From positions 434,001 through 498,000 of the forward strand of contig JAIXWF010000011.1 of the NCBI GenBank assembly GCA_027482185.1: a DNA stretch of 64,000 bases, given 5' to 3'. Source of the stretch: Opitutaceae bacterium. Its GTDB lineage: Bacteria; Verrucomicrobiota; Verrucomicrobiia; Opitutales; Opitutaceae. Of the stretch, positions 5,203 through 62,218 are shown piece after piece. Position numbers and translations under genes: made by a program. Each line of letters opens with the position of its first letter. Position 1 is the first letter of the stretch. The notes under the pieces were generated by a model. The model saw only the letters and a list, made by a program, of their open reading frames with translations. It was not told the origin of the DNA and did no database searches.

Positions 5203-5247
5203 CCTATCCGTCCCCTAAGTCCCATCCGTCCCATTCGTCCCATTTTC
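5203..5247. repeat. 9-bp tandem array (CCCATCCGT type)
   Basis: Five consecutive 9-bp units: CCTATCCGT, CCCCTAAGT, CCCATCCGT, CCCATTCGT, CCCATTTTC. The same word recurs at 38125-38169 and 41355-41391. Confidence 0.75.
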
Positions 5248-19118: not shown

Positions 19119-20561
19119 ATGAGCCAGAAGAAGTCCGCCCCCGAAGTCACCCGCCGCGAATTCCTCGGCAGCGCCTGCTGCGCCGCCGTCGGCGCCACAG
19201 GTCTCCTCTCCGCCCTCTCCAGCCTCCGCCTGATGGGCGCCGTCGCCAGTCCCGGCAACGGCCCGCAAACCCCGTCGCGTTCCGGCGCCATCGCCGGCGA
19301 CTACAAAGCCCTGGTCTGCCTCTTCCTCAACGGCGGCAACGACGCCAACAACCTCATCATCCCCACCGGCTCCGGCTACGCCGCGTACGCCACCGCGCGC
19401 TCCAACCTCGCCATCCCGCAGGACCGCGCCCTCGCCATCTCCCCCAAGACCTCGGACGGCCGCACTTGGGGCCTGCACCCGGCGGTCACCGAGCTCCACA
19501 GCCTCTTCAACAACGGCAAGGCCGCCCTCATCGGCAACGTCGGTACCCTGGTGTATCCGACGACCAAGGCCCAGTACACCGCCCGCAGCGTGCCCCTTCC
19601 GCCGCAGCTGTTTTCCCACAGCGACCAGCAGGTCCAATGGCAGCACAGCGTGCCCGACAAGCCGACCTCCACCGGCTGGGGCGGCCGCGTCGCCGACCTC
19701 GTCAACGCCTTCAACACCAACAACGAGATTTCCATGTCGGTCAGTATCGCCGGCAAGAATACGTTCCAGGTCGGCGCCCAGGTCGCCCAGTACGCCATCA
19801 ACACCGGCGGCGCCACCACCCTCGCCGGCAGCACGACCAGCCTGACCCCGACCACCCTCGACGGCGTCCGTTTTCGCGCCCAGAAAGACATTTTCGCGCA
19901 GAGCCAGCCGGGCCTGTTCGAGACCGCGTTCGGCACCGCGTCGGGCGACGCCATCGTCAGCGCGGATCTGCTCAACAGCGTGCTCTCGTCCTCCGGCACT
20001 TTGCTCACGCCGTTCCCGAACACCAACGTCGGCAACCAGCTCCGCATGGCCGCGCGCCTGATCGCCGCGTCGCCCAACCTCGGCCTCAAGCGCCAGATCT
20101 TCTTCGTCCAGCTCGGCGGCTGGGACACGCATGCCGCCCAGCTCACCAACACCGATCCGACCACCGGCGCCCACGCCGTCCTGCTTTCCCAGGTCAGCCA
20201 GGCCGTGAACGCGTTCTACAACGCCACGGTCGAGCTCGGCGTCGCCAATCAGGTGACCACGTTCACCGCCTCGGACTTCGGCCGGACCTTCCGCTCCAAC
20301 GGCGACGGCTCGGACCACGGCTGGGGCAGCCACCACTTCGTCGTCGGCGGCGCCGTCAAAGGCACCGAACTCTACGGCAAACTCCCGACGCTCACGATCA
20401 ACGGCCCGGACGACACCGGCCTCGGCCGCTGGATTCCGACCACCAGCGTCGACGAATACGCCGCAACCCTTGCGACTTGGTTCGGCGTCAGCGCCTCCGA
20501 TCTCCCGATCGTGCTCCCGAACATCGGCCGCTTCGCGAAACCGAATCTCGGTTTCCTCTGA
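19119..20561 (+). CDS. DUF1501 family Tat-exported protein
   Basis: 480 aa. Twin-arginine signal RREFLGSACCAAVGATG at about 12-28. The DUF1501 core shows DYKALVCLFLNGGNDANNLI, FSHSDQQVQWQHS, IFFVQLGGWDTHAAQ, FTASDFGRTFRSNGDGSDHG and WGSHHFVVGG. The family belongs to the alkaline phosphatase/sulfatase-like superfamily by fold, but its substrate is unknown. It is 20 bp behind the DUF1800 gene, so the two are one operon; a paralogous pair lies at 54227-57940. The signal peptide predicts folded export to the periplasm or cell surface. Confidence 0.92.
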   Translation: MSQKKSAPEVTRREFLGSACCAAVGATGLLSALSSLRLMGAVASPGNGPQTPSRSGAIAGDYKALVCLFLNGGNDANNLIIPTGSGYAAYATARSNLAIPQDRALAISPKTSDGRTWGLHPAVTELHSLFNNGKAALIGNVGTLVYPTTKAQYTARSVPLPPQLFSHSDQQVQWQHSVPDKPTSTGWGGRVADLVNAFNTNNEISMSVSIAGKNTFQVGAQVAQYAINTGGATTLAGSTTSLTPTTLDGVRFRAQKDIFAQSQPGLFETAFGTASGDAIVSADLLNSVLSSSGTLLTPFPNTNVGNQLRMAARLIAASPNLGLKRQIFFVQLGGWDTHAAQLTNTDPTTGAHAVLLSQVSQAVNAFYNATVELGVANQVTTFTASDFGRTFRSNGDGSDHGWGSHHFVVGGAVKGTELYGKLPTLTINGPDDTGLGRWIPTTSVDEYAATLATWFGVSASDLPIVLPNIGRFAKPNLGFL

Positions 20562-20604: not shown

Positions 20605-20765
20605 CGGATTCCGGTTTACGAATCCCGGTCTCCGGTTCCGTTTTCCGAGTTCCGGTTTTCAATTCCGGTATCCGAATTTCGGTTTCCGAATTTCGAACTC
20701 CGGTTTCCGAATTCCGGTTCCCGGTCTTCAAATCCGGTTTCCGGTCTTCGCCCTCCGGTTTTGCC
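20605..20765. repeat. Long degenerate heptad array (TCCGGTT / CCGAATT words)
   Basis: About 22 consecutive 7-bp units alternate TCCGGTT, TCCGAAT, TTCGGTT, CCGGTCT and similar. It fills nearly the whole gap between DUF1501 and the next start codon. Related words occur inside the CDS at 23671-24009. Confidence 0.85.
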
Positions 20766-20778
20766 TTCCGCCGCCGCC

Positions 20779-21318
20779 ATGTCCCCCAAGCGCCTCGCCG
20801 TCCTCGTCCTTTCCGTCGCCGCCGCCCTCTTCTTCTACTTCCTGGGCCGCCCCGGCTCCCCGGCCGCGGATCCGACGGTGGCGAGGCCGGGCGGCGGCAC
20901 TCCAGGCCCGGCCGGCGTTCCATCCGTCTCGCCCGCCTCGGCGCCGATCCGCGCCGGCACCGCGCCGGCCATCGCCCGCTCCACTTTGGCCGACGGCCTC
21001 AACTCCCCGGGCCAGGACATCTTCGCCGACCTGCGCCAGATCAACGATCTCCTCGCGGCTTTCCGTTCCAATTTCCCCCGCGACGGCAATCCCTCCGGCA
21101 GCAACGCGGAGATCACCGCCGCCTTGGCCGGAAGAAACAAACTCCAGCTTGCCCTCCTCCCGCCCGACCATCCGGCCATCAACCGTGACGGCGAACTCTG
21201 CGACCGCTGGGGCACGCCGCTCTTCCTTCACCCGGAAAGCGGCACGCGTATGGATCTCCGCAGCGCCGGCCCCGATCGCAAACTCTGGACCGACGACGAC
21301 ATCGTCTTCGACCGCTGA
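20779..21318 (+). CDS. Hypothetical membrane-anchored protein with pseudopilin-like C terminus
   Basis: 179 aa from ATG 20779 (MSPKRLAVLVLSVAAALFFY), with one N-terminal membrane segment (about 5-22), a Pro/Ala/Ser-rich linker to about 75, then a compact domain. The domain ends GELCDRWGTPLFLHPESGT followed by RSAGPDRKLWTDDDIVFDR, a segment also seen at the C terminus of type II secretion major pseudopilins (GspG) and many Verrucomicrobiota hypotheticals. No prepilin-peptidase motif (GFxxxE) precedes the helix, so it is not a canonical pseudopilin. It sits directly after the DUF1800/DUF1501 pair, and the second pair is preceded by a real pseudopilin. Confidence 0.7.
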   Translation: MSPKRLAVLVLSVAAALFFYFLGRPGSPAADPTVARPGGGTPGPAGVPSVSPASAPIRAGTAPAIARSTLADGLNSPGQDIFADLRQINDLLAAFRSNFPRDGNPSGSNAEITAALAGRNKLQLALLPPDHPAINRDGELCDRWGTPLFLHPESGTRMDLRSAGPDRKLWTDDDIVFDR

Positions 21319-21994: not shown

Positions 21995-22393
21995 ATGAAA
22001 AACCACCTCCTCCTCGCCGCCGCCCTCCTGGGCTCCGTCACGCTCGGCTTCGCCGCCGACTCCAAAGCTCCCCACCACGGGAGCCATGCAACCAAACCCT
22101 CCGCCGCCCAACCGGCCGGCGCCCTTGTCCCCGTCACCGAAAAGGACGCCGCCTGGGCCGCCAAGGCCCGCAAAGACTACCCGCTCGATGTCTGCGTCGC
22201 CGCCGACGAAAAACTCGGCAGCATGGGCGACGGCGCCGTCTTCATCTGGCGCGCCGAGGGCAAGCCCGACCGCCTCGTCGTCTTCTGCTGCGAGGGCTGC
22301 GTCGACGACTTCAAAGGCGATCCCGCGAAGCACCTGAAGAAGATCGACGCTGCCGCCGCCGCCAAAGCGAAGGCCGCGGGCAAGAAATCCTGA
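21995..22393 (+). CDS. Exported TRASH/YHS-like heavy-metal-binding protein
   Basis: 132 aa from ATG 21995 (signal peptide MKNHLLLAAALLGSVTLGFA; the frame is open upstream without a leader). A His-containing linker (KAPHHGSHATK) precedes a small domain, YPLDVCVAADEKLGSMGDG to VVFCCEGCVDDFKGDPAKHL, with Cys-x(n)-CCxxC spacing like TRASH/YHS treble-clef metal-binding domains. The tail is Lys/Ala-rich. It lies 5 bp before the TolC-like gene, so it is part of the efflux operon and likely delivers or buffers Cu/Ag in the periplasm. Confidence 0.75.
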   Translation: MKNHLLLAAALLGSVTLGFAADSKAPHHGSHATKPSAAQPAGALVPVTEKDAAWAAKARKDYPLDVCVAADEKLGSMGDGAVFIWRAEGKPDRLVVFCCEGCVDDFKGDPAKHLKKIDAAAAAKAKAAGKKS

Positions 22394-22397
22394 CGCC

Positions 22398-23666
22398 ATG
22401 GCCGCGCGCCCGACGCTGCTTCTCTTGGTGCTCGGTCTCGCCGGGTCCGCCTCCGCCGCGGACCCGGCCGTCCCGGGTCTGCTCGACGCCGTCGGGCGCG
22501 CCCCCCAGCTCGCCGCCGCCGCCCGGCGCATTGAGGCGGCCCAGGCCCGCACCGGCTCCGCCGGCCGGCTCGCCGATCCCGAGATCGAAGCCATGGGCTC
22601 CCGCGTCAACGCCGACGCCATGGGCGAAAACCGCGACATGTGGGAACTCAGCGTCCGCCAGCCGCTCCCGAAACGCGGCGAACGCGCCGCCGATCTCGCC
22701 CGCGCCGCCGCCGCCGTCCGCATGGCGGAGGCCGATTTCGCGATGACTGCGGGCGACGTCGCCGCGGATGTCGCGCTGGCGCTCGCGGAGGCCGACGGCG
22801 CCGACGCACGCGCCGCTCTCCTCGAAGTCCAGCTGCAGCGCCTCGCCGCCGCCCTGCAAAGCGTCGACGCGCGCCTCGCGTCCGGCGTTGCGACGCGGCT
22901 GGCCGACCGCCTCACGCTGCAAAGCCGGGTCTCCGCGATGCAATTGGAACGCGAGCAGCTCGGGCGCCTCGCCGCCGACCAGCGCGCGCTCGCCCGCGGC
23001 CGCCTCGGCCTCGCTCCCGAGTCCCCGCTCCCGGCCTTCGCGGCTCCCGCCGGCGCCGAGATCGACGCCGCGGATGCCGCCACCGTCGCCGTCGCCCTGG
23101 CCCGTCTCGCCGAAGCCGACGCCATGGGCAAAATGGCCCGCGCCGGCGCCAACCCGATGACCTCCGTCGGCCTGCGCTTCGAACGCGAGCGCAGCAGTAT
23201 GGGCAATCAGGATACCGTCGGCCTGGCGGTCTCGTCCGAAATTCCCTGGCGCACCCGGCGCTACGCCCGCGCCGAAGTCCGCGCCGCCGAAGCCGACCGC
23301 GCCGCCGCCGTCGCGGACGCCGACGCCGCCCGCCACCGGCTCGCCGCCGCCGTATCCCGGGTCGCCCGCGCCGAGCGCGTCGCCGCGGCCGCCCGCCGGC
23401 TCTCCTCCGACACCCAGGCCCGCCTCGACGCCGAACACGAGGCACTCTCCCGCAGCCTCAGCGTCTCGCGCCCGGCCGGCGGCATGGACGGCGACTCCGC
23501 CGTCCTTCACGCCGTCGACATCCTCGACCGCGCGACCGCGCTGCAGCTCCAGATTCTCGAGGCGGAAACCTCCGTCCTCGCCGCCCGCGCCGAACTTTGG
23601 CGCTACCTCCCGCCCCGCCGGCTCTTGCCGCCGGACCTCGCCGCCCGCCCATCCACCCGCGATTGA
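22398..23666 (+). CDS. TolC-family outer-membrane efflux protein (CusC/CzcC-like)
   Basis: 422 aa with signal peptide (MAARPTLLLLVLGLAGSASA). Two long Ala/Arg/Glu-rich coiled-coil halves typical of outer-membrane efflux proteins are visible: ADPEIEAMGSRVNAD and WELSVRQPLPKRGERAADLA mark the first hairpin, and GLAVSSEIPWRTRRYARAEV the second. Trimeric TolC relatives form the outer-membrane channel of tripartite RND pumps. It is second in the run TRASH protein - TolC - YHS protein - adaptor - RND permease, with 4-5 bp gaps on both sides. Metal specificity is assigned from the permease rather than from this protein. Confidence 0.88.
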   Translation: MAARPTLLLLVLGLAGSASAADPAVPGLLDAVGRAPQLAAAARRIEAAQARTGSAGRLADPEIEAMGSRVNADAMGENRDMWELSVRQPLPKRGERAADLARAAAAVRMAEADFAMTAGDVAADVALALAEADGADARAALLEVQLQRLAAALQSVDARLASGVATRLADRLTLQSRVSAMQLEREQLGRLAADQRALARGRLGLAPESPLPAFAAPAGAEIDAADAATVAVALARLAEADAMGKMARAGANPMTSVGLRFERERSSMGNQDTVGLAVSSEIPWRTRRYARAEVRAAEADRAAAVADADAARHRLAAAVSRVARAERVAAAARRLSSDTQARLDAEHEALSRSLSVSRPAGGMDGDSAVLHAVDILDRATALQLQILEAETSVLAARAELWRYLPPRRLLPPDLAARPSTRD

Positions 23667-23670
23667 TGCC

Positions 23671-24009
23671 ATGAAATCCGTCTTCCTCTTCCTCGCCACC
23701 TTCACCGTCGGAGCCGTCGCCGCGCTCGCCTACCGCACCGCCCGCCACGACCCTACTCCGGTTTCCGGTCTCCCCGCTCCGGTTTCCCAGCCAACGTCTC
23801 CGGTCTCCGGTCTCCCCACTTCGGTTTCGAAAACGCCGGTCAACACCGTCTGCGCCATCTGCGGCATGGACGTCGACCCGAAGCTGCCCACCGCCGAGTA
23901 CCAGGGAAAGACCATCGGCTTCGGCTGCCGCATGTGCCCGCCGAAATTCAAGGCCGAGCCCGACAAGTTCGGGCCGCTCTATCTCCGCAACGAAGTTGTC
24001 AAACGCTGA
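23671..24009 (+). CDS. Membrane-anchored YHS-type metal-binding protein with heptad-encoded linker
   Basis: 112 aa: one N-terminal hydrophobic segment (MKSVFLFLATFTVGAVAALA), a linker made of PVSGLP/APVSQP/SPVSGLP/TSVSKTPV (about 29-56), then CAICGMDVDPKLPTAEYQGK and GFGCRMCPPKF, a Cys2-Cys2-like YHS/TRASH metal site. The linker is the translation of a 7-bp array (23755-23835) of the same TCCGGTT words found between genes at 20605-20765. Encoded between the TolC-like and adaptor genes (gap 4 bp on each side), it probably acts as a periplasmic metallochaperone. Confidence 0.78.
   Translation: MKSVFLFLATFTVGAVAALAYRTARHDPTPVSGLPAPVSQPTSPVSGLPTSVSKTPVNTVCAICGMDVDPKLPTAEYQGKTIGFGCRMCPPKFKAEPDKFGPLYLRNEVVKR
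23755..23835. repeat. Heptad array inside a coding sequence (TCCGGTT/TCCGGTC)
   Basis: About eleven 7-bp units within the YHS-protein gene encode its Pro/Val/Ser-rich linker. 7 bp is not a multiple of 3, yet the frame stays open across the array. Confidence 0.8.
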
Positions 24010-24013
24010 TCCC

Positions 24014-25315
24014 ATGCGCCGGTCCTCTTTGCTCGCCGCCGCGGCCGGCCTCGCCGCCGGCATTGTGACCGTCGCCTCCATCCCGGCGACGAAGCTCTTC
24101 CCGGCGCCCCCCGCCCCGGCTGCCGCCGCGGCGGCCGGCGAGCGCTGGGCCTGCCCGATGATGGACTTCATCGGCAACCGCCCCGGCGACTGCCCGGTCT
24201 GTGGCATGAAAATGACAAAGGTCACCGCCGGCGAGCTGACACGCGAACAGCAGAACCGCATGGGCGTATCCCTTTCCACCGTCACGTCCGGCCCCGCCAC
24301 GGCCATAATCCGCGCCTACGGCACCGTCCGCTACGACGACCGCACCTTGCAGGTCGTCGTGCCGCGCGTCGCCGGCCGCATCGTGAAACGGCATCCCGCT
24401 GCGCTCCATCCCGGCAATCTCGTCGCCGCCGGAGATCCGGTCGTCGACCTCTACAGCCCGGAAGCCTTCGCCGCGCAGGGCGAACTCGCCGCCGCGGTGA
24501 AACTCGCCGACGGCCACGCCATCCACGCCCTGCTCGAACGCTTCACGCGCTGGAACCTGCGGCCGCTGGCCGACGCCGTCCTGCAGGGCGGCGCCCCCGT
24601 CGACACCGTCACGATCCTTTCCCCTTACGCCGGCACCGTCGTGCTCGGTCTCGAAGGCGAAGGCATGGCCGGCGCGAAACTGCCCACCGTCGGCGCCGAA
24701 GTGATGGCCGACACGCCGCTGCTCCGCCTCGTCGAGCCGCGCACCTTCATGGTCGTCGTGCACGTGCCCGAGGCCCGCGCGCATTGGCTGCGCGAGGGCC
24801 AGACCGTGCGCCTCGCCTCCGACGACCGCGGCGAGTTGCCCGACGTCGCCGCCCGCGTCACGTGGCTTGCCCCCGAACTCAACGCCGAGATTCGTGCCCG
24901 CGAGGTCCATCTCCATCTCGCCGACCCCAACGGCCGCCTCCTGGTCGGCAGCCTGGTCAACGCCCGCATCGAGGCCGCCCTCGGTCCCGCGCTCGAGGCC
25001 GCCGAGACGCCAGCGATGTTCACCCTCGTGCCGAAATCCGCCGTGCTCTCGACCGGCGTGCGCAACGTCGCCTGGCGCGTCGCCGGCCGCGAAAGCGACG
25101 GCCGGATCCGCTTCGAGCTCGCCCCGCTCGCCCTCGGGCCGCGGCTTGAAACGGCGAACGGCACGGACGCCTACATTGTCCGCGCCGGCCTGAAGCCCGG
25201 CGACGAGGTCGCCACCCAGGGCGCTTTCCTGATCGACAGCCAAGCCCAGCTCGCCGGCACCCCGAGCCTGCTCTTCCCGCTCGGCGCAACCGCCGCCCCC
25301 GCCCACAGCCACTGA
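24014..25315 (+). CDS. cusB: RND efflux periplasmic adaptor, CusB-type with heavy-metal-binding domain
   Basis: 433 aa from ATG 24014 (MRRSSLLAAAAGLAAGIVTV), with an N-terminal membrane anchor or signal. Residues about 45-70 are the heavy-metal-binding zinc-ribbon-like domain WACPMMDFIGNRPGDCPVCG of CusB-type adaptors. The beta-barrel/lipoyl core follows (IRAYGTVRYDDRTLQVVVPR, GRIVKRHPAALHPGNLVAAG, TILSPYAGTVVLGLEGEG), and the C-terminal membrane-proximal domain ends with AHSH. In the Cus system the adaptor passes Cu(I)/Ag(I) to the permease and bridges it to the channel. The gene lies 4 bp after the YHS protein and 70 bp before the permease, a gap that contains a GAACTCN heptad array. Confidence 0.9.
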   Translation: MRRSSLLAAAAGLAAGIVTVASIPATKLFPAPPAPAAAAAAGERWACPMMDFIGNRPGDCPVCGMKMTKVTAGELTREQQNRMGVSLSTVTSGPATAIIRAYGTVRYDDRTLQVVVPRVAGRIVKRHPAALHPGNLVAAGDPVVDLYSPEAFAAQGELAAAVKLADGHAIHALLERFTRWNLRPLADAVLQGGAPVDTVTILSPYAGTVVLGLEGEGMAGAKLPTVGAEVMADTPLLRLVEPRTFMVVVHVPEARAHWLREGQTVRLASDDRGELPDVAARVTWLAPELNAEIRAREVHLHLADPNGRLLVGSLVNARIEAALGPALEAAETPAMFTLVPKSAVLSTGVRNVAWRVAGRESDGRIRFELAPLALGPRLETANGTDAYIVRAGLKPGDEVATQGAFLIDSQAQLAGTPSLLFPLGATAAPAHSH

Positions 25316-25385: not shown

Positions 25386-28300
25386 GTGCTCACCTTCGCC
25401 ATCCGCAATCCGTTCCTGACCCTCGCCGCGTCGCTCGCCCTCGCGATCGCCGGACTGTGGGCCTGGCGCCAGGTGCCGGTCGACGCGATCCCCGATCTCA
25501 GCGACAATCAGGTGATCGTCTGGGCCGAGTGGCCGGGCCAAAGCCCGCAGGACATCGACCAGCAGGTCACCTCGCGCCTCGCCCGCGAACTTCAGGGCCT
25601 GCCCGGCGTCCGCACCGTGCGGGGCATGTCTCTCTACGGCGCCGCCTACGTCTACGTGATCTTCGAGGAACGCCGCGATCTCTACGACTGCCGCACGCGC
25701 GTCCTCGAACGGCTTTCGCAGGTCCAGGGCCTGCTGCCTGCGGGCGTGAATCCGCGTCTCGGGCCCGACGCCACCGCCATGGGCCAAATCTACGCGTTCA
25801 CGCTCCAGGGCCCGCGCGATCTCGAGGCGAAACGCTACCTGCTTGATCAGGTCGTCGTCCCCGCCCTGCGCGCCGTGCCCGGCGTCGCCGAGGTCGCCCC
25901 GGCCGGCGGCGTCGTGCGCGAATACCAGATCGACGTCGACCCCGTGCGCCTCGAGGAGCAGGGCCTCACGCTCGACATGCTGATGATGGCCGTGCAGGCC
26001 GCGGGCCGCGACACCGGCGCTATGAGCGTCGAACGCAGCGGCGTCGAAACCATGATCCGCGGCGTCGGCTTCATCCGCTCCGTCGCCGACGTGGAAAACA
26101 TCGTCCTCCGCGGCAACCGCGCCAAGGGCGCCGGCCTCCGGCTCGGCGAGGTCGCCGCCGTTTCGCTCGGCGGCCAATTCCGCCAGGGCCTGCTCGCCGA
26201 CGCGCATCAGGAACACGTCGGCGCGATCGTCGGCCTGCGCGTGCGCGAGGATCCGAAGCGCGTGATCGACGCCGTCAAACGCCGCCTCGCCGATCTCGCG
26301 CCCACGTTTGCGCGCGAGCAGGTGAGCGTCGTGCCGTTCTACGATCGCTCCCAGCTGATCCGCGAAACCACCGCGACGCTCTCCGCCACGCTCGTCGAGG
26401 CCGTCGTCACTACCGCGATCGTGGTTATTGTTTTTCTGTTGCACGCGCGGGCCAGCCTCGCCGTCGCCGTCAGCCTGCCGCTCGGCATGCTCTTCACCTT
26501 TCTCGTGATGCACGCCGCCGGTGTCGGGGCCAACATCATGAGCCTCGCCGGCATCGCGATCGCGATCGGCGTGATGGTCGATTTCGGGATCATCATGACC
26601 GAAAACATCACGCAGCACCTCGTCGACCTGCAGGAGAAATGCCGGCGCGAGGGCCGCGCGATGCCGACCTCGCCGTTCGACGCGGAGATCACCGCCGCCG
26701 TCATCGCCGGGGCCAAGGAAGTCGCGCGCCCGTTGCTCACCTCGGCCGCCACCACCGTGATGGGGTTCCTGCCGATCTTCGCCCTGCAGGATCAGGCCGG
26801 CCGGCTGTTCGCGCCGCTCGCATTGACCAAGTCCCTCGCGATCAGCGGCGCCGTCCTCTTCGGCACGCTCCTCGTCCCCGTGCTCTGCCGCCTGCTCCTG
26901 CCGCCTTGGCAAGTGCGCAAGCCGATCCTGCTCGCCGTCGCCGGACTCGCGGGCGGCCTCGGCTTCGGCTGGTTCATCCGCGACGGCTGGAGCTTGCCCC
27001 AGGACTACGGTCGCTGGGCCCTCGCCGTTCCCGGTTGGCTCTTCGCCCCGCTCTTCGGCGGCGCCGTCGCGCTGCTCGTCTGGCGCCTCGGTCGCGAACG
27101 GCTTGTCAACTACGAGGAGAATCCCGCGAGCCGCGCCATCCACGTCGCCTATGAATGGGCCTACGGCCACATCCAGCGCCACAAGGTCGTCTTCACCGCC
27201 GCCATCGCCTCGCTCGCCCTCGGCGGCTACCTGCTCGGGCTCGGTTGGACGACGGTGAGTTGGCCGTTGCGCCAAGCCTTCGCCCTCGCCGGCGCCGACC
27301 TCTCCCGCACCGCCGCGGACCAAGCGCTGGCGCGCGCGTTTCCCGGCGTCGGTTCGAGTTTCCTGCCGCCGCTCGACGAAGGCAGCCTCCTCTTCATGCC
27401 GTCGATCCCGGCTTCCGGCGGTCTCGGCGAAACCCAGCGCGTGATGCTCGCCCAGAATCGTCTCATCGAGTCCGTCCCCGAGGTCGCCCACGTGATGGGC
27501 AAAATGGGCCGCGCCGAGACCGCCCTCGATCCCGCACCCATCGGCATGATCGAAACGGTTGTAGTGCTGAAACCGTACGCCGAGTGGCCCGTGCATCCGT
27601 TTGCCAAACCCGACGGCACCGAGGAAAAACGCCCACGCACCCTCGCCGAGGTGCGGGCCGCGCTCGCCGCAATCTCCGACATTCCCGGCGTCGCGCCGAG
27701 TTGGCTCCAGCCGATCGAGACCCGCGTCGTGATGCTGTCCACCGGCATCCGCAGCCTGATCGCGCTGCAGGTGCTCGGCGACGACACCGACGCCCTCGAG
27801 CGCTTTGCCGAAGCCGCCGAGAAAGTGATCCAAGGCACGCCCGGCGCCGTCGACGTGCAGATGCAGCGCGAAGGCGGCAAACCCTACGCCGAGATCCGCC
27901 TCGACCCGGAGAAACTCGCGCGCTTCGGCCTGAGCAACGAGCAGGTGATGCGCGCCGTCGAGACCGCCTTCGGCGGCATGGCCGTGACCTATTCGGTCGA
28001 AGGCGCACTCCGTTATCCGGTCCGGATCCGCTACGCCCGCGAACGCCGCGACGACGCCGACGAACTCGCCCAGCTCCAGATTCCCGCCACCGCCGGCCAC
28101 GGCGCCATCCCGCTTTCCAGCCTCCTCGCTGCGCCGACCGTCCACACGCTCGTGTTCGCCGATGCCTCCGGCGCCCAACTCTCGACGTTCGGCGCCCGAC
28201 TCTCACTCACCCACCAGCGCAACCTCGTCGGCCTCTCGCCCACGCGCGCCGAACTCACGCTGCCCGCCGGCGAATCGCTCGCGTCCGTGCTCGCGCCGTT

Positions 28301-29105
28301 TGCCGCCGCCGACCGGCCCGAGGCTGTCGGCTCCCGCCCCGGCGAGCTCGGCCTCACCTACACCGTCGGGCCGATGGCGATCCGCTCCGAAGCCGGCAAA
28401 CGCACGCAGTACGTGCTGCTCAACGCCCGCGGCCGCGGCGAGGTCGAGGTCGTGCGCGACGCCGACGCCCGCCTGCGCACCGCGCTCGCCGCCGGCGAAC
28501 TCGTCCTGCCCGCCGGCGCCACCTACCGCTGGGTCGGCCGCTACGAACAGAAACTCAAGGCCGACGCCTCGCTCCGCTGGATCATCGCCGCCTCTCTCGC
28601 CGTGATGGTGATCCTCATCTACGTCGGCACCCGTTCGTGGCTGATCACCGCGATCATCATCGGCGCGAACGCCTCGGTCACCACGGCCGGCGGCTTCTTC
28701 TTCGTCTGGTGGTGGGGCGCCGAGCTCACCACCGCCGTGATCGTCGGCTTCATCGTGCTGCTCGGCGTCATGTTCAACGACGGCATTTTGCTCGGCACGT
28801 ACATCCAGGAAAAATTCGCGACGCCGCCGCGCGATCTCGGCGAGGTCAACGCGCGCGTCTTCCAGGCCGGCCTGCGCCGCCGCCGCCCGGCCATCATGAC
28901 CAACGCCACGACGCTGCTCTCCCTCGTGCCCGTCCTCTGGGCCACCGGCCGCGGCTCCGAACTCATGATCCCGATGGTCCTGCCCGTGGTCGGCGGCATG
29001 ATCTTCGACGTCGTATCCCTTTTCTCGGTACCCGTCTTCTACACCTGGTACTGGGAACGCAAACTCGCCCGCCGGCCGGGGACCGGGGTCCCGGCGCCGA
29101 ATTGA
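25386..29105 (+). CDS. cusA: Heavy-metal efflux RND permease CusA (Cu/Ag type) with extra insertion
   Basis: 1239 aa from a GTG start (25386; LTFAIRNPFLTLAASLALA). The TM4 motif VMVDFGIIMTENI and the export-path methionines mark the copper/silver branch: LLFMPSI, APIGMIETV and TRVVMLSTG correspond to the three methionines (M573, M623, M672) of E. coli CusA as I recall them. It is the proton-driven inner-membrane pump of the CusCBA complex. At 1239 aa it is about 190 aa longer than E. coli CusA. Much of the excess lies at about 505-650, with additional hydrophobic segments (ILLAVAGLAGGLGFGWFI, LFAPLFGGAVALLVW) before the second porter loop. Last gene of the operon. Confidence 0.92.
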   Translation: MLTFAIRNPFLTLAASLALAIAGLWAWRQVPVDAIPDLSDNQVIVWAEWPGQSPQDIDQQVTSRLARELQGLPGVRTVRGMSLYGAAYVYVIFEERRDLYDCRTRVLERLSQVQGLLPAGVNPRLGPDATAMGQIYAFTLQGPRDLEAKRYLLDQVVVPALRAVPGVAEVAPAGGVVREYQIDVDPVRLEEQGLTLDMLMMAVQAAGRDTGAMSVERSGVETMIRGVGFIRSVADVENIVLRGNRAKGAGLRLGEVAAVSLGGQFRQGLLADAHQEHVGAIVGLRVREDPKRVIDAVKRRLADLAPTFAREQVSVVPFYDRSQLIRETTATLSATLVEAVVTTAIVVIVFLLHARASLAVAVSLPLGMLFTFLVMHAAGVGANIMSLAGIAIAIGVMVDFGIIMTENITQHLVDLQEKCRREGRAMPTSPFDAEITAAVIAGAKEVARPLLTSAATTVMGFLPIFALQDQAGRLFAPLALTKSLAISGAVLFGTLLVPVLCRLLLPPWQVRKPILLAVAGLAGGLGFGWFIRDGWSLPQDYGRWALAVPGWLFAPLFGGAVALLVWRLGRERLVNYEENPASRAIHVAYEWAYGHIQRHKVVFTAAIASLALGGYLLGLGWTTVSWPLRQAFALAGADLSRTAADQALARAFPGVGSSFLPPLDEGSLLFMPSIPASGGLGETQRVMLAQNRLIESVPEVAHVMGKMGRAETALDPAPIGMIETVVVLKPYAEWPVHPFAKPDGTEEKRPRTLAEVRAALAAISDIPGVAPSWLQPIETRVVMLSTGIRSLIALQVLGDDTDALERFAEAAEKVIQGTPGAVDVQMQREGGKPYAEIRLDPEKLARFGLSNEQVMRAVETAFGGMAVTYSVEGALRYPVRIRYARERRDDADELAQLQIPATAGHGAIPLSSLLAAPTVHTLVFADASGAQLSTFGARLSLTHQRNLVGLSPTRAELTLPAGESLASVLAPFAAADRPEAVGSRPGELGLTYTVGPMAIRSEAGKRTQYVLLNARGRGEVEVVRDADARLRTALAAGELVLPAGATYRWVGRYEQKLKADASLRWIIAASLAVMVILIYVGTRSWLITAIIIGANASVTTAGGFFFVWWWGAELTTAVIVGFIVLLGVMFNDGILLGTYIQEKFATPPRDLGEVNARVFQAGLRRRRPAIMTNATTLLSLVPVLWATGRGSELMIPMVLPVVGGMIFDVVSLFSVPVFYTWYWERKLARRPGTGVPAPN

Positions 29106-38086: not shown

Positions 38087-38598
38087 ACGCTTTTTCCTCC
38101 ACCATGAAATCCATCCGCTCCCTCCTCTCCGTCCCATCGGTCGCATCCGTCCTATCGGTCCTATCCCTGCTCGCCGTCCCCGCACTCGCCGCGGACAAAA
38201 AACACGACCCCAGCGACCACACCCACGAAAAGAAAACCGCCGGCCCCAACGGCGGCCGCCTCATCAACACCGTCACTCCCCGCGCCGAGTTCTTCGTCAC
38301 CGCCGACCGCAAGGTGCAGATCACCTTCCTCGACGCCGCGGGCAAAGCCATCGCCCCCGCCGGCCAGGTCGTGACGGTCACCAGCGGCGAACGCTCCGCG
38401 CCCAAAACCCTTACGTTCGTGAAATCGGGCGACACTCTCCTCTCCGTCGCCGCCCTGCCGGCCGGCAACAACCTGCCGACCGTCGTGCAAATCAAGGCCG
38501 ACGCCGCCGCCAAGCCGATCACCGCCAAGTTCAACGTCGATCTGGTCAAGTGCGGCGAATGCAAACTCGCCGAATACGCCTGCATCTGCGCGCATTGA
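38083..38598 (+). CDS. Exported protein with C-terminal Cys tail, RND-operon accessory
   Basis: 171 aa from ATG 38083, which overlaps the permease stop; a second ATG at 38104 (MKSIRSLLSVPSVASVLSVL) would give 164 aa. The leader is partly the translation of a 9-bp array (SVPSVASVLSVLS). Mature part: KKHDPSDHTHEKKTAGPNGG, the beta-rich AEFFVTADRKVQITFLDAA, and the C-terminal KCGECKLAEYACICAH with four cysteines and a terminal His. HEKKTAGPNGGRL resembles the APHGGTL of the next protein, so the two may share a fold. No named family. Likely a periplasmic metal-binding partner of the pump. Confidence 0.75.
   Translation: MNAFSSTMKSIRSLLSVPSVASVLSVLSLLAVPALAADKKHDPSDHTHEKKTAGPNGGRLINTVTPRAEFFVTADRKVQITFLDAAGKAIAPAGQVVTVTSGERSAPKTLTFVKSGDTLLSVAALPAGNNLPTVVQIKADAAAKPITAKFNVDLVKCGECKLAEYACICAH
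38125..38169. repeat. 9-bp array inside the leader of the Cys-tailed protein
   Basis: Five 9-bp units: CTCTCCGTC, CCATCGGTC, GCATCCGTC, CTATCGGTC, CTATCCCTG. Their three-codon period encodes S-V-(P/A/L) repeats of the signal peptide. Same word family as 5203-5247 and 41355-41391. Confidence 0.75.
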
Positions 38599-39857: not shown

Positions 39858-39867
39858 CCGCCCACCC

Positions 39868-39922
39868 GTTTCCCGTTTTTCCAATTTCCCGCTTTCCCAA
39901 TTTTCCGCTTTTCCAATTTTCC
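39868..39922. repeat. Heptad array (TTTTCCA/CCAATTT) abutting a start codon
   Basis: Seven to eight units such as GTTTTTC, CAATTTC, CCGCTTT, CCCAATT, TTCCGCT, TTTCCAA, TTTTCCA. The last base precedes the ATG of the CobW-type gene, so the array occupies the place of a ribosome-binding site. Confidence 0.8.
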
Positions 39923-41326
39923 ATGATCCCCGTTACCGTCCTCACCGGCTTCCTTGGCGCCGGCAAGACCACCCTCCTCAACCGCATCCTCACCGAATAC
40001 CACGGCAAGAAACTCGCCGTGATCGAAAACGAATTCGGCGAGGTCGGCGTCGACCACCAGCTCGTCATCCAGAGCGAGGAGGAACTCTTCGAGATGAACA
40101 ACGGCTGCATCTGCTGCAGCGTGCGCGGCGATCTCATCCGCATCCTCGGCCGCCTGCTCAAACGCAAGGACCGGCTCGACGGCATTCTCATCGAGACCAC
40201 CGGCCTCGCCAATCCCGCCCCCGTCGCGCAGACGTTCTTCACCGACGACGAGATCAAGCAGCACTTCCGCCTCGACGCCATCGTCACCGTCGTCGACGCC
40301 AAACACGTCAGCCAGCACCTCGACGGCGACGACGAGTCCGTGAAACAGATCGGTTTCGCCGACGTGATCCTCCTCAACAAGACCGACCTCGTCGCCCCCG
40401 CCGAACTCGCCGCCCTCGAGGCCCGCATCAAGGGCATCAACGCCGTCGCCCGCGTCCATCGCACGCAAAACTGCGATATCCCCTTCGACCGCGTCCTCGA
40501 CGTCGGCGGCTTCAACCTCAGCCGCGCCACCGAACTCGACCCGCAGTTCCTCCAACCCGAATACCCCTTCGAATGGGCCGGCGCCTACGCCCTGCCCGTC
40601 GGCCAACACGTCCTCGAGATCGGCCACTGCGACCACGATCACGGCCATGATCACGGTCACGACCATGGCCACGACCACGGCGAAGCCGGCCACCACCATC
40701 ATCACCACGGCAATCCCAACGAACTCGATGTCGTCGTCATGCCCGTGAAATCCCTCGCCGAAGCCGATCTCGCCACGGCCCGCGACGCCGCCGTCCTCGT
40801 TTTTTCGGATTGGGAAGCCCGCACCGCCGAAGGCGAAACCGTCAACCCCGGCGCCACCTTGCATCGCCTTCTCCTCAAAGACGGCGACGGCCGCTTCGTC
40901 CTCAAAATCACGCAGCCCGGTTTCTATCTCGTCTGCGAATCCTGCGGCCACGATCCCCTCCACATCCGCATTATGGGCGAGACCGCCCGCCCCGCCTGGC
41001 AGCAGGACTTCCATCTCGCCCACGACCACAACGAGGCCGTCTCCTCCGTCGGCATCAGCACGCCCGGCGACCTCGACGGCAAGAAACTCAACGACTGGAT
41101 CGGCGACCTCCTCAAGACCAAGGGCGGCGACATCTACCGCATGAAGGGCGTGCTCGCCGTGAAGGGCTCCGGCAAACGCCTCGTCTTTCAAGGCGTCCAC
41201 ATGCTCTTCGACGCCAAGTTCGACCGCGAATGGGGCTCCACCCCGCGCCAGAACACCCTCGTCTTCATCGGCAAGAACCTCGACCGCGCCGCACTCACCG
41301 AAGGCTTCAAAGCCTGCCTCGCCTGA
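39923..41326 (+). CDS. CobW/COG0523 family GTPase, putative metallochaperone
   Basis: 467 aa from ATG 39923 ([20 protein letters not shown] with Walker [10 protein letters not shown]). Further marks: [10 protein letters not shown], the metal-binding [13 protein letters not shown] (CxCC), the guanine motif NKTD, and the CobW C-terminal domain ([19 protein letters not shown]). A His/Asp-rich insertion at about 233-260 ([18 protein letters not shown] then a HHHHHH run) will bind divalent metal. Family members insert or traffic Zn, Co or other metals with GTP hydrolysis. It lies at the end of the second RND operon, so it may balance zinc or cobalt with the efflux pump. A second His-containing stretch ([10 protein letters not shown]) follows. 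Confidence 0.92.
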
Positions 41327-41354: not shown

Positions 41355-41391
41355 CCGGTATAGGTCCCATCCGTCCTATCCGTCCCATCTC
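41355..41391. repeat. 9-bp tandem array (TCCCATCCG)
   Basis: Four units CGGTATAGG, TCCCATCCG, TCCTATCCG, TCCCATCTC in the 223-bp gap after the CobW gene; third locus of the 9-bp word. Confidence 0.7.
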
Positions 41392-46076: not shown

Positions 46077-46278
46077 TAGAGCTGTCAGCTCTCAGCTTTC
46101 AGCACCGGAGAGCGATCCGCCCCATTTTGCGGCGGCCCCCCCCAAATGCGGGACCAAGTGAACGCCAACGGCCCGCGCCGCCAGCTGACCGCTGACCGCT
46201 GATAGCTGATAGCTGATTGCTGATTGCTGATTGCTGATTGCTGATTGCTGATCGCCGACCGCCAGCGGCTGCGCCGCC
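46077..46278. repeat. Inverted heptad arrays (CAGCT / AGCTGAT) in convergent junction
   Basis: Left 46079-46104: AGCTGTC, AGCTCTC, AGCTTTC, AGC. Right 46192-46262: AGCTGAC, CGCTGAC, CGCTGAT, AGCTGAT (x2), TGCTGAT (x5), CGCCGAC, the longest uniform heptad run in the window. The two sides are of opposite polarity (TCAGC vs GCTGA). A run of eight C (46136-46143) lies between them. Confidence 0.9.
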
Positions 46279-61180: not shown

Positions 61181-62218
61181 ATGCAACTGACGAAACACTG
61201 GGCCGCGTCCCTCGACGACTACGCGATCGACCTCGCCTGGTCCCCCGACGGCCGCCTCCTCGCCGCCGCAAGCGCCGCCGGCCCGGTCTCGCTCTTCGCC
61301 GGCGCCGACGGCGCCCGCGCCCACCTGCTCCCCGGCCACGCCAACGGCACCAACTGCCTCGCCTGGGCCCCGGCCGGCACGCATCTCGCCACCGGCGGCC
61401 AGGACGGCGCCGTGAAATTCTGGGACGCCCCCGCCGGCCAGCACACCGCCACCGCCGCCCTCGGCTCCTCGTGGATCGACCACCTCGCCTGGACCGCCAC
61501 CACTGCCTCCGGCGCTCAATCCTCAACCCTCAACTCTCAACTCCTCTTCGCCGCCGCCGGCCGCGGTCTCTTCGCGCTGCGCCCCGACGCCTCCGTCGCC
61601 CACACCTTCAAACCCGCGCCGAAAACCATCACCGCCCTCGCCGCCATCCCTTCCGGCGGAGCCGTCGCCGCGGCCCACTTCGGCGGCGTCGTGCTCTGGG
61701 ACGCCGACGATTTCGTGGCCCAGAAGGAATTCCCCTACGGCAACGGCATCCAAGGCCTCGTCTGGTCCCCGGACAACAAGTGGCTCGTCTCCGGCAACCA
61801 GGACCCGAGCGTCCACCTTTGGATTCCGGAACAGGACATCGAGCTCCACATGAGCGGCTACGAAACCAAGGTGAAGTTCCTCTCCTTCGATTGCGGCTCG
61901 CGCTGGCTCGCGACCAGCGGCGGCCGCGATGCCTGCGTGTGGGACTGCACCGGCGCCGGCCCCGAAGGCCGCGAACCCGCCATGCTCCCGCACGATGCGC
62001 CCGTCTGCGCCGTGCAGTTCCAGCACACGCACGGTCTGCTCGCGACCGGCGCGCAGGACGGCACCGTCCAACTCTGGAGCCCCGAACGCCGCCAACCGCT
62101 TCGCGCCACCGTCAAGATGCCCGCCGCCGCCACCAAGCTCGTCTGGTCCCCCGACGATCGCCAACTCGCGATCGGCACCGAGAAGGGCCACGTCTTCGTG
62201 CTGAAGTGCGAAGCGTAA
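61181..62218 (+). CDS. WD40 beta-propeller protein
   Basis: 345 aa from ATG 61181 (MQLTKHWAASLDDYAIDLAW); an in-frame TTG 36 bp upstream is less likely. Seven WD-like blades are visible: DLAWSPDGRLLAAASAAGPV, CLAWAPAGTHLATGGQDGAV followed by KFWD, LVWSPDNKWLVSGNQDPSV then HLW, AVQFQHTHGLLATGAQDGTV then QLW, LVWSPDDRQLAIGTEKGHV. WD40 propellers serve as protein-interaction platforms. It has no signal peptide and follows the cytoplasmic kinase by 63 bp, so it may scaffold kinase signalling. At residues about 112-122 the chain AQSSTLNSQLL is encoded by a CTCTCAA heptad array inserted in a blade loop. Confidence 0.85.
   Translation: MQLTKHWAASLDDYAIDLAWSPDGRLLAAASAAGPVSLFAGADGARAHLLPGHANGTNCLAWAPAGTHLATGGQDGAVKFWDAPAGQHTATAALGSSWIDHLAWTATTASGAQSSTLNSQLLFAAAGRGLFALRPDASVAHTFKPAPKTITALAAIPSGGAVAAAHFGGVVLWDADDFVAQKEFPYGNGIQGLVWSPDNKWLVSGNQDPSVHLWIPEQDIELHMSGYETKVKFLSFDCGSRWLATSGGRDACVWDCTGAGPEGREPAMLPHDAPVCAVQFQHTHGLLATGAQDGTVQLWSPERRQPLRATVKMPAAATKLVWSPDDRQLAIGTEKGHVFVLKCEA
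61513..61545. repeat. Heptad array inside the WD40 gene (CCCTCAA/CTCTCAA)
   Basis: CGCTCAA, TCCTCAA, CCCTCAA, CTCTCAA, CTCCTCT in 7-bp phase within the WD40 coding sequence, translated as part of a Ser/Leu/Asn/Gln-rich loop. Same words as the intergenic arrays at 2611, 13743 and 49190. Confidence 0.8.

Follow-up and report, generated by a model that had tools for sequence, protein, structure and literature searches.

The linker of a small YHS-like protein encoded in an efflux operon of an Opitutaceae bacterium is, with a probability of about 85%, a translated array of 7-bp DNA repeats (heptads) that arose at the DNA level and was then tolerated as a flexible spacer. The window in which the gene lies is a stretch of 64,000 nucleotides (C21:434001–498000) of a 6.43 Mb genome in 24 contigs. 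The closest orthologue found for the YHS-like protein (locus L018) belongs to “Opitutia bacterium Tous-C1TDCM” (genome G150), referred to here as the sister. An origin at the DNA level followed by tolerance would probably have run as follows. The genome carries hundreds of 7-bp arrays, drawn from a limited set of words and mostly lying between genes, and the TCCGGTN family is present in the sister as well. An array would arise in, or be copied into, a site at which a flexible spacer does no harm to the protein, whatever its sequence, and a TCCGGTN array would stay readable provided that its net length keeps the frame. The array-encoded stretch would then form an unstructured tether between an N-terminal helix and a domain of metal-binding type.

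The operon was assigned to the CusABC type of metal efflux, as a CusA/CzcA-family RND pump lies beside an adaptor and an outer-membrane channel. The CusC-like outer membrane efflux protein (22398–23666, + strand) matched OEP over the Pfam cut-off (E = 6.9e-18), and the CusB-like periplasmic adaptor (24014–25315, +), which carries a heavy-metal-binding domain, matched HlyD_D23 and HMBD over the Pfam cut-offs and the NCBIfam adaptor models below theirs. The pump (25386–29105, +) scored 723.2 bits with TIGR00914 (cut-off, 701.45). In the same operon, the ORF at 23671–24009 (+), characterized from the ORF list, Pfam and an alignment of 14 orthologues, encodes a protein of 112 aa. Pfam YHS (PF04945) matched this protein with an E value of 1.1e-4 and 22.5 bits, below the gathering cut-off of 30.3, and the domain is therefore called YHS-like. 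Among the 14 aligned orthologues, 13 matched YHS at E ≤ 0.01, and the cysteines C61, C64, C86, and C89 are invariant.

An AlphaFold2 model built with 14 sequences (mean pLDDT, 81.8) gave a helix at residues 2–24 (23674–23742, +; pLDDT 95 and 94 for residues 1–20), no structure up to about residue 59, and then a confident small domain. The YHS-like domain spans residues 58–106 (23842–23988, +), with pLDDT of 92–95 for residues 61–110. Foldseek with the predicted structure returned no match at E ≤ 0.001, the best being toluene/o-xylene monooxygenase hydroxylase (E = 0.24), with a TRASH domain at E = 0.84, and a search of solved structures returned none at E ≤ 0.1. The N-terminal helix probably anchors the protein in the membrane, the YHS-like domain is predicted to bind metal, and the linker may serve as the tether between them. 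A second short protein near the operon (21995–22393) has a weak YHS match and an N-terminus that looks like a signal peptide by eye.

The array was read directly as 81–87 bp of TCCGGTN heptads, in frame within the ORF. It occupies residues 29–57 (23755–23841, +) and is translated as TPVSGLPAPVSQPTSPVSGLPTSVSKTPV, with pLDDT of 52 and 45 for residues 31–50 and no secondary structure. Written in sevens from position 23756, the DNA consists of CTCCGGT, TTCCGGT, CTCCCCG, CTCCGGT, TTCCCAG, CCAACGT, CTCCGGT, CTCCGGT, CTCCCCA, CTTCGGT, and TTCGAAA, and TRF reported periods of 7 (score 41) and 14 (score 47). The array is degenerate: the longest run of exact TCCGGT words is two, and the best lag-7 segment scores 13, whereas the genome census below required at least 16. 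Five exact TCCGGT words stand in the 7-bp register and give 10 in-register pairs, a number that was never matched when the peptide was redrawn 20,000 times with synonymous codons at the usage of called genes. The in-register words of the sister linker were likewise reached in 0 of 20,000 redraws. Direct reading and word register together bear out the claim of the earlier note that a heptad array runs inside this coding sequence.

Written by sevens, the peptide is PVSGLPA PVSQPTS PVSGLPT SVSKTP; since 3 × 7 = 21, its period is also 7. One and the same DNA word is read in differing frames along the array, as P-V-S here and as S-G-L next, in line with the prediction for a repeat at the DNA level. 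The linker could instead be an ordinary Pro/Val/Ser-rich spacer shaped at the protein level, whose likeness to the intergenic arrays is a coincidence. Orthologue linkers that are likewise Pro/Ala/Ser-rich are consistent with this explanation, as is the lag-7 identity of 36/80, which was equaled in 12 of 20,000 codon-order shuffles but in 1,922 of 20,000 synonymous redraws and is unremarkable against the latter. Because the redraws reach the identity and not the register, the case for the array rests on word register rather than on lag-7 identity alone. The codons also argue against a protein-level spacer. The linker has a mean log relative adaptiveness of −1.088, compared with −0.298 (sd 0.172) for equal-length windows of called genes, of which 568 of 566,089 (the lowest 0.1%) scored as low, and compared with −0.270 and −0.230 for the gene parts on either side. 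The rare codons behind this score are GTT, GGT, ACT, GCT, TCT, and CCA, and the sister linker also scored −1.088 with the codon table of the genome that holds the window. With the word-register and codon tests against it, and the same pattern present at hundreds of places in the genome, a protein-level coincidence is very unlikely.

The earlier note had taken the open frame through the array to imply selection or a lucky choice of words, on the ground that 7 is not divisible by 3. We rejected this argument. TCCGGTT, TCCGGTC, TCCGGTA, and TCCGGTG are stop-free in all six frames, a property shared, when repeated, by 8,264 of the 16,384 heptamers (50.4%), and 11,260 of 16,384 (68.7%) are open on a given strand. 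By simple arithmetic, whichever of the three frames of a strand is read, an exact heptad array encodes one and the same cyclic peptide of 7 residues, and its length decides only the exit frame. Therefore, open reading of TCCGGTN needs no luck, and only the exit frame must fit.

Another explanation is a contingency switch, in which the YHS-like protein is silenced or restored by a frameshift whenever one 7-bp unit is gained or lost. Single-unit slippage would break the downstream domain, and slippage is one proposed origin of such arrays (PMC4679880, citing Mrazek 2007). However, no more than two exact units stand in a row, and the linkers of the two species, in which identical words align, differ by two 15-bp gaps that preserve the frame and are not multiples of 7. 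A switch is thus highly improbable; the in-frame state of the genic arrays is not counted against it because the arrays were found inside open frames.

Orthologues were matched at E ≤ 1e-5 in 17 of 150 family genomes, own included, and a scan of 84,980 species genomes yielded 69 loci, of which the closest 17 (L018–L034) were examined. By record title, sixteen of these are Opitutaceae, Opitutus, Opitutae or Verrucomicrobia, and one is Rubrivivax. Script reading of 32 of the 34 loci gave 27 distinct linkers, the window’s included; L005, read by eye, adds one, which has no array, and L032 was not read. From a common start the orthologue linkers span 31 to 83 residues and are mostly rich in Ala, Pro, and Ser, often with His. 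In the orthologue alignment called for by the earlier note, the helix and the CAICGMD domain are kept, and linker sequence, and usually length, differs in 26 of the 27 other distinct linkers, an outcome that favours the note. Among the orthologues read, a PVSGLP linker occurs only at L018. TCCGGT words number five in the window’s linker, seven at L018, and 0 or 1 at the other script-read loci, and the best lag-7 linker scores are 13, 16, and 2–9, respectively. The same linker in unrelated codons, the counterexample that the earlier note had named, was also looked for; the sole array-type linker, that of L018, uses the same DNA words. No clean pair of empty and filled sites was seen for the YHS-like gene, the array being common to two species only.

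The word pattern TCCGGTNTCCGGTNTCCGGT was found at 347 places in the own genome with up to two mismatches, compared with 0 for the reversed control. An intergenic TCCGGTN array does lie, as previously noted, in the gap 20605–20765 (+, the same orientation as the ORF array), between the called genes 19119–20561 and 20779–21318, and the sister holds TCCGGT words in the equivalent gap; given 347 matches, however, naming this gap as the only other place was too narrow. With up to one mismatch, the pattern occurs 101 times in the own genome, 57 times in the sister, and once in total in six other congeners. High counts at this level appear in two other genera (e.g., 87 in G056 and 46 in G016), and yet the orthologue in G056 (L016) has no array. 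Some match of the pattern was obtained in 27 of 150 family genomes, own included; the reversed control also matched in several other genomes, up to 13 times. Of 44 TCCGGT clusters in the first 1.26 Mb, which had been selected in part because they contain array sites, 39 are intergenic and five coding, two of them in MutL.

A census of heptad arrays, defined as lag-7 segments with a score of at least 16, covered 2.06 Mb (32% of the own genome), in which a home-made gene caller with a fixed model found 1,475 genes (89.8% coding). Because known array matches guided the choice of the C20 stretch and of seven stretches of 20 kb, the densities are not unbiased. The 230 segments obtained comprise 185 intergenic, 20 on gene boundaries, and 25 coding in 16 called genes, with six of the 25 in UvrA; MutL, RecD2, and a WD40 protein are also among the 16. 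For comparison, lags 4, 5, 10, 11, 13, 17, 19, and 20 gave 1–4 segments each (0–1 coding), lag 8 gave 29 (3 coding), and lag 16 gave 18 (1 coding). Genes thus contain far fewer arrays than intergenic DNA but clearly more than the background, and the 25 coding arrays add to the present linker in supporting the earlier proposal that arrays inside genes become protein linkers. The YHS array is not among the 25, as it scores below 16 and the fixed model lacks the YHS gene, which is conserved and was called in another gene set. A few of the 25 are short GC-rich stretches that may be due to chance (C3:9121 and C3:768507). For words with a stop on one strand only, all seven coding arrays (five genes) lie in the open orientation, compared with a strand split of 42:38 between genes. 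A 400-kb sample of genome G003 held 15 arrays, 12 intergenic and three coding in a single gene, with a borrowed model that called only 65% coding. Three contig ends (G000:C1:169795–169876, C19:1–94, and C8:1–152) are near-perfect heptad arrays; assemblies therefore seem to break there, and long perfect arrays may be under-counted.

The preponderance of intergenic arrays (185/230) would suit a further explanation, that the array is a regulatory or structural DNA or RNA element whose translation is incidental. A regulatory role has been suggested for the heptamer arrays of Beggiatoaceae (PMC4679880), and G-quadruplex formation for those of Xanthomonas and Nostoc (PMC4692102). Against this, TCCGGTN has no G-run of three or more, several different words have the same outcome, and divergence between own genome and sister shows no sign of constraint at the DNA level. 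In 165 array codons (YHS, UvrA, MutL, and WD40), positions 1, 2, and 3 differ at rates of 0.152, 0.091, and 0.176, compared with 0.052, 0.037, and 0.192 in 3,723 other codons of the same genes plus CusB and CusC; with gaps left out, 24.8% of residues differ in array codons and 7.5% elsewhere. In array codons, first positions are altered almost as frequently as third positions, which gives these codons the look of tolerated filler: kept open and otherwise free, the arrays in genes are close to neutral. Fourfold sites differ alike inside and outside arrays (14/77 and 416/2131, small numbers that are uneven by gene), and the DNA-level conservation of genic arrays hinted at by pairwise alignments was rejected on this basis. 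Near-neutral divergence is consistent with a spacer and argues against a signal conserved in the DNA, and we regard the regulatory or structural explanation as unlikely.

Arrays translated as tolerated spacers were also found in conserved proteins other than the YHS-like one. MutL, UvrA, and WD40 arrays occupy stretches that vary among relatives, with conserved flanks on either side. MutL (TIGR00585) has inter-domain linker arrays in the own genome (score 21) and the sister (40), and a different heptad word in G054 (score 13); the remaining 13 of the 16 genomes aligned, out of 20, have no array (scores 4–8), although G005 shows a period of 8 bp in this linker instead (score 15). UvrA (L138:7206–13172) is a chain of 1,988 aa, about two UvrA lengths, which the NCBIfam UvrA model (1,809 positions) matched below its cut-off. 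It holds arrays at four sites in the own genome and at three in the sister, with a weaker one at the fourth, where the AAACCCA array of the own genome is nearly missing. In the UvrA alignment (15 of 20 genomes; first site readable in five, own included), relatives mostly have short unrelated stretches between conserved flanks at these sites; scores of at least 12 at lag 7 were seen in G113 and G005 at the second site, G005, G010, and G146 at the third, and G010, G003, and G139 at the fourth. RecD2 (TIGR01448 over its cut-off for the piece searched) has an array at residues 292–328, between its HHH (164–252) and AAA (from 386) domains, and a GD_AH-domain protein (altronate/galactarate dehydratase-like) carries TPNPELRTPNSATPVSGLPIPVS beyond its C-terminal domain match, whose last residue is 530. 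Three of the genes with arrays function in DNA repair or encode helicases (MutL, L119:5839–7671; UvrA, as located above; RecD2, G000:C20:299269–301629), and a slippage-driven mutator switch could in principle arise from the mutL array.

The WD40 gene (61181–62218; PF00400 over its cut-off) is the clearest case of one loop that holds different words across species. A CTCAAC(C/T) array at 61515–61543 (+) is translated as SSTLNSQL. The own genome and the sister share CTCAAC(C/T) in this loop; G146 has CTCAGCG, G005 has GTTCAGG/GTTCCGG, G016, of another genus, has TCCGGTA words read as NYPVSGIPNPVSAHPVSGIRSP, and G139 has a weak array. The other 11 of the 17 genomes aligned, out of 18 with a match, have none (scores 3–8). 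CTCAACT was matched in 23 of 100 genomes, for which the reversed control is invalid, the reversal being a rotation of the word itself. Over all array sites in genomes beyond own and sister, 13 of 71 segments scored at least 12 at lag 7, compared with 0, 2, 0, 0, and 1 of the same segments at lags 5, 8, 10, 11, and 13. Elsewhere in the same frames, 14 of 457 windows scored at least 12 at lag 7, where the stop-to-stop frames can include upstream intergenic DNA. As the G003 and G005 assemblies consist of one and two contigs, draft assembly error is an unlikely cause of these arrays.

The words themselves form a limited vocabulary. The 230 census arrays use 73 distinct words, where random intergenic 7-mers gave 179 on average, and the most frequent word occurs 21 times, compared with at most 10 in 200 draws of intergenic 7-mers. 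This vocabulary is a poor fit to slippage of arbitrary local 7-mers, and a mutational bias toward certain words could be its source. A more doubtful proposal, which we advance tentatively, is that word-specific copying rather than local slippage spreads a small heptad vocabulary within the genomes of this family, with the WD40 loop, the MutL and UvrA linkers, and the YHS tether recolonized by different words in different species. If so, frame-indifferent arrays would be a ready source of linkers for conserved proteins.

It is known that palindromic elements of Rickettsia are inserted in frame into genes and translated; these are palindromic dispersed repeats and not short tandem heptads. Heptads are the most abundant repeat class in most repeat-rich genomes (Mrazek 2007, as cited in PMC4679880). 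The TAACTGA repeats of Beggiatoaceae resemble the arrays described here in being abundant and mostly intergenic, in occurring in some ORFs as a 7-residue repeat, and in that stop codons dictate which way round they lie within ORFs; they fall in or overlap 25 putative proteins (MacGregor 2015, PMC4679880). Beggiatoaceae have a single word, every frame of which is closed by stops on one strand, whereas many words, several of them open in six frames, are found here. In 13 Beggiatoaceae cases the repeats overlap the stop codon of the upstream gene, and the ORFs with internal repeats are mostly short hypothetical or unassigned ones (PMC4679880), in contrast to the internal linkers of conserved proteins, compared with orthologues, in the present study. 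The dispersed, degenerate GGGAATC and GGGGA(C/T)T heptamer arrays of Xanthomonas and Nostoc are under-represented in genes, as are those here, and form G-quadruplexes, unlike TCCGGTN (Rehm 2015, PMC4692102). In two xanthomonads, 11% and 7% of heptamer arrays overlap an ORF at least in part (PMC4692102), compared with 45 of 230 overlapping genes here (25 inside and 20 on boundaries); peptides or linkers encoded by the arrays are no topic in the portion of that report covered. In Geobacter metallireducens, 49 GGACCGG heptanucleotide elements between and within genes, with four units, were interpreted as a predicted regulatory RNA element (PMC2700814). When the reverse complement of TCCGGTC is rotated, GGACCGG differs from it by a single letter.

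Neither a description of translated heptad arrays in Verrucomicrobia or Opitutaceae nor the STLNSQL peptide was found in the literature covered, preprints and most subscription papers lying outside that coverage. Heptamer arrays inside ORFs have been reported already; what seems to be new is that unrelated words have repeatedly come to occupy the same linker site. The arrays offer a concrete route from non-coding repeat DNA to protein for which luck with the frame is unneeded. Genic arrays can leave a fingerprint in codon usage and lend themselves to comparison of individual sites between species, and filled and short linker versions in sister genomes give a handle on how arrays originate and move. 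The arrays also explain odd repeats in conserved proteins of this genome, such as STLNSQL, TPNSELR, PKTQNPK, and PVSGLP, which could otherwise be mistaken for functional motifs.

Other repeats were observed in the window. The top lag-7 score in it (67/74) belongs to a GCTGATT heptad array at 46183–46262. An array at 39865–39923 has an 8-bp period, and lag 8 forms a minor second class in the genome sample. Similar 9/18-bp repeats of the ATCCGTCCC / GTCCCATCC type, perhaps a separate repeat family, lie at 5206–5243, 38123–38166, and 41364–41389.
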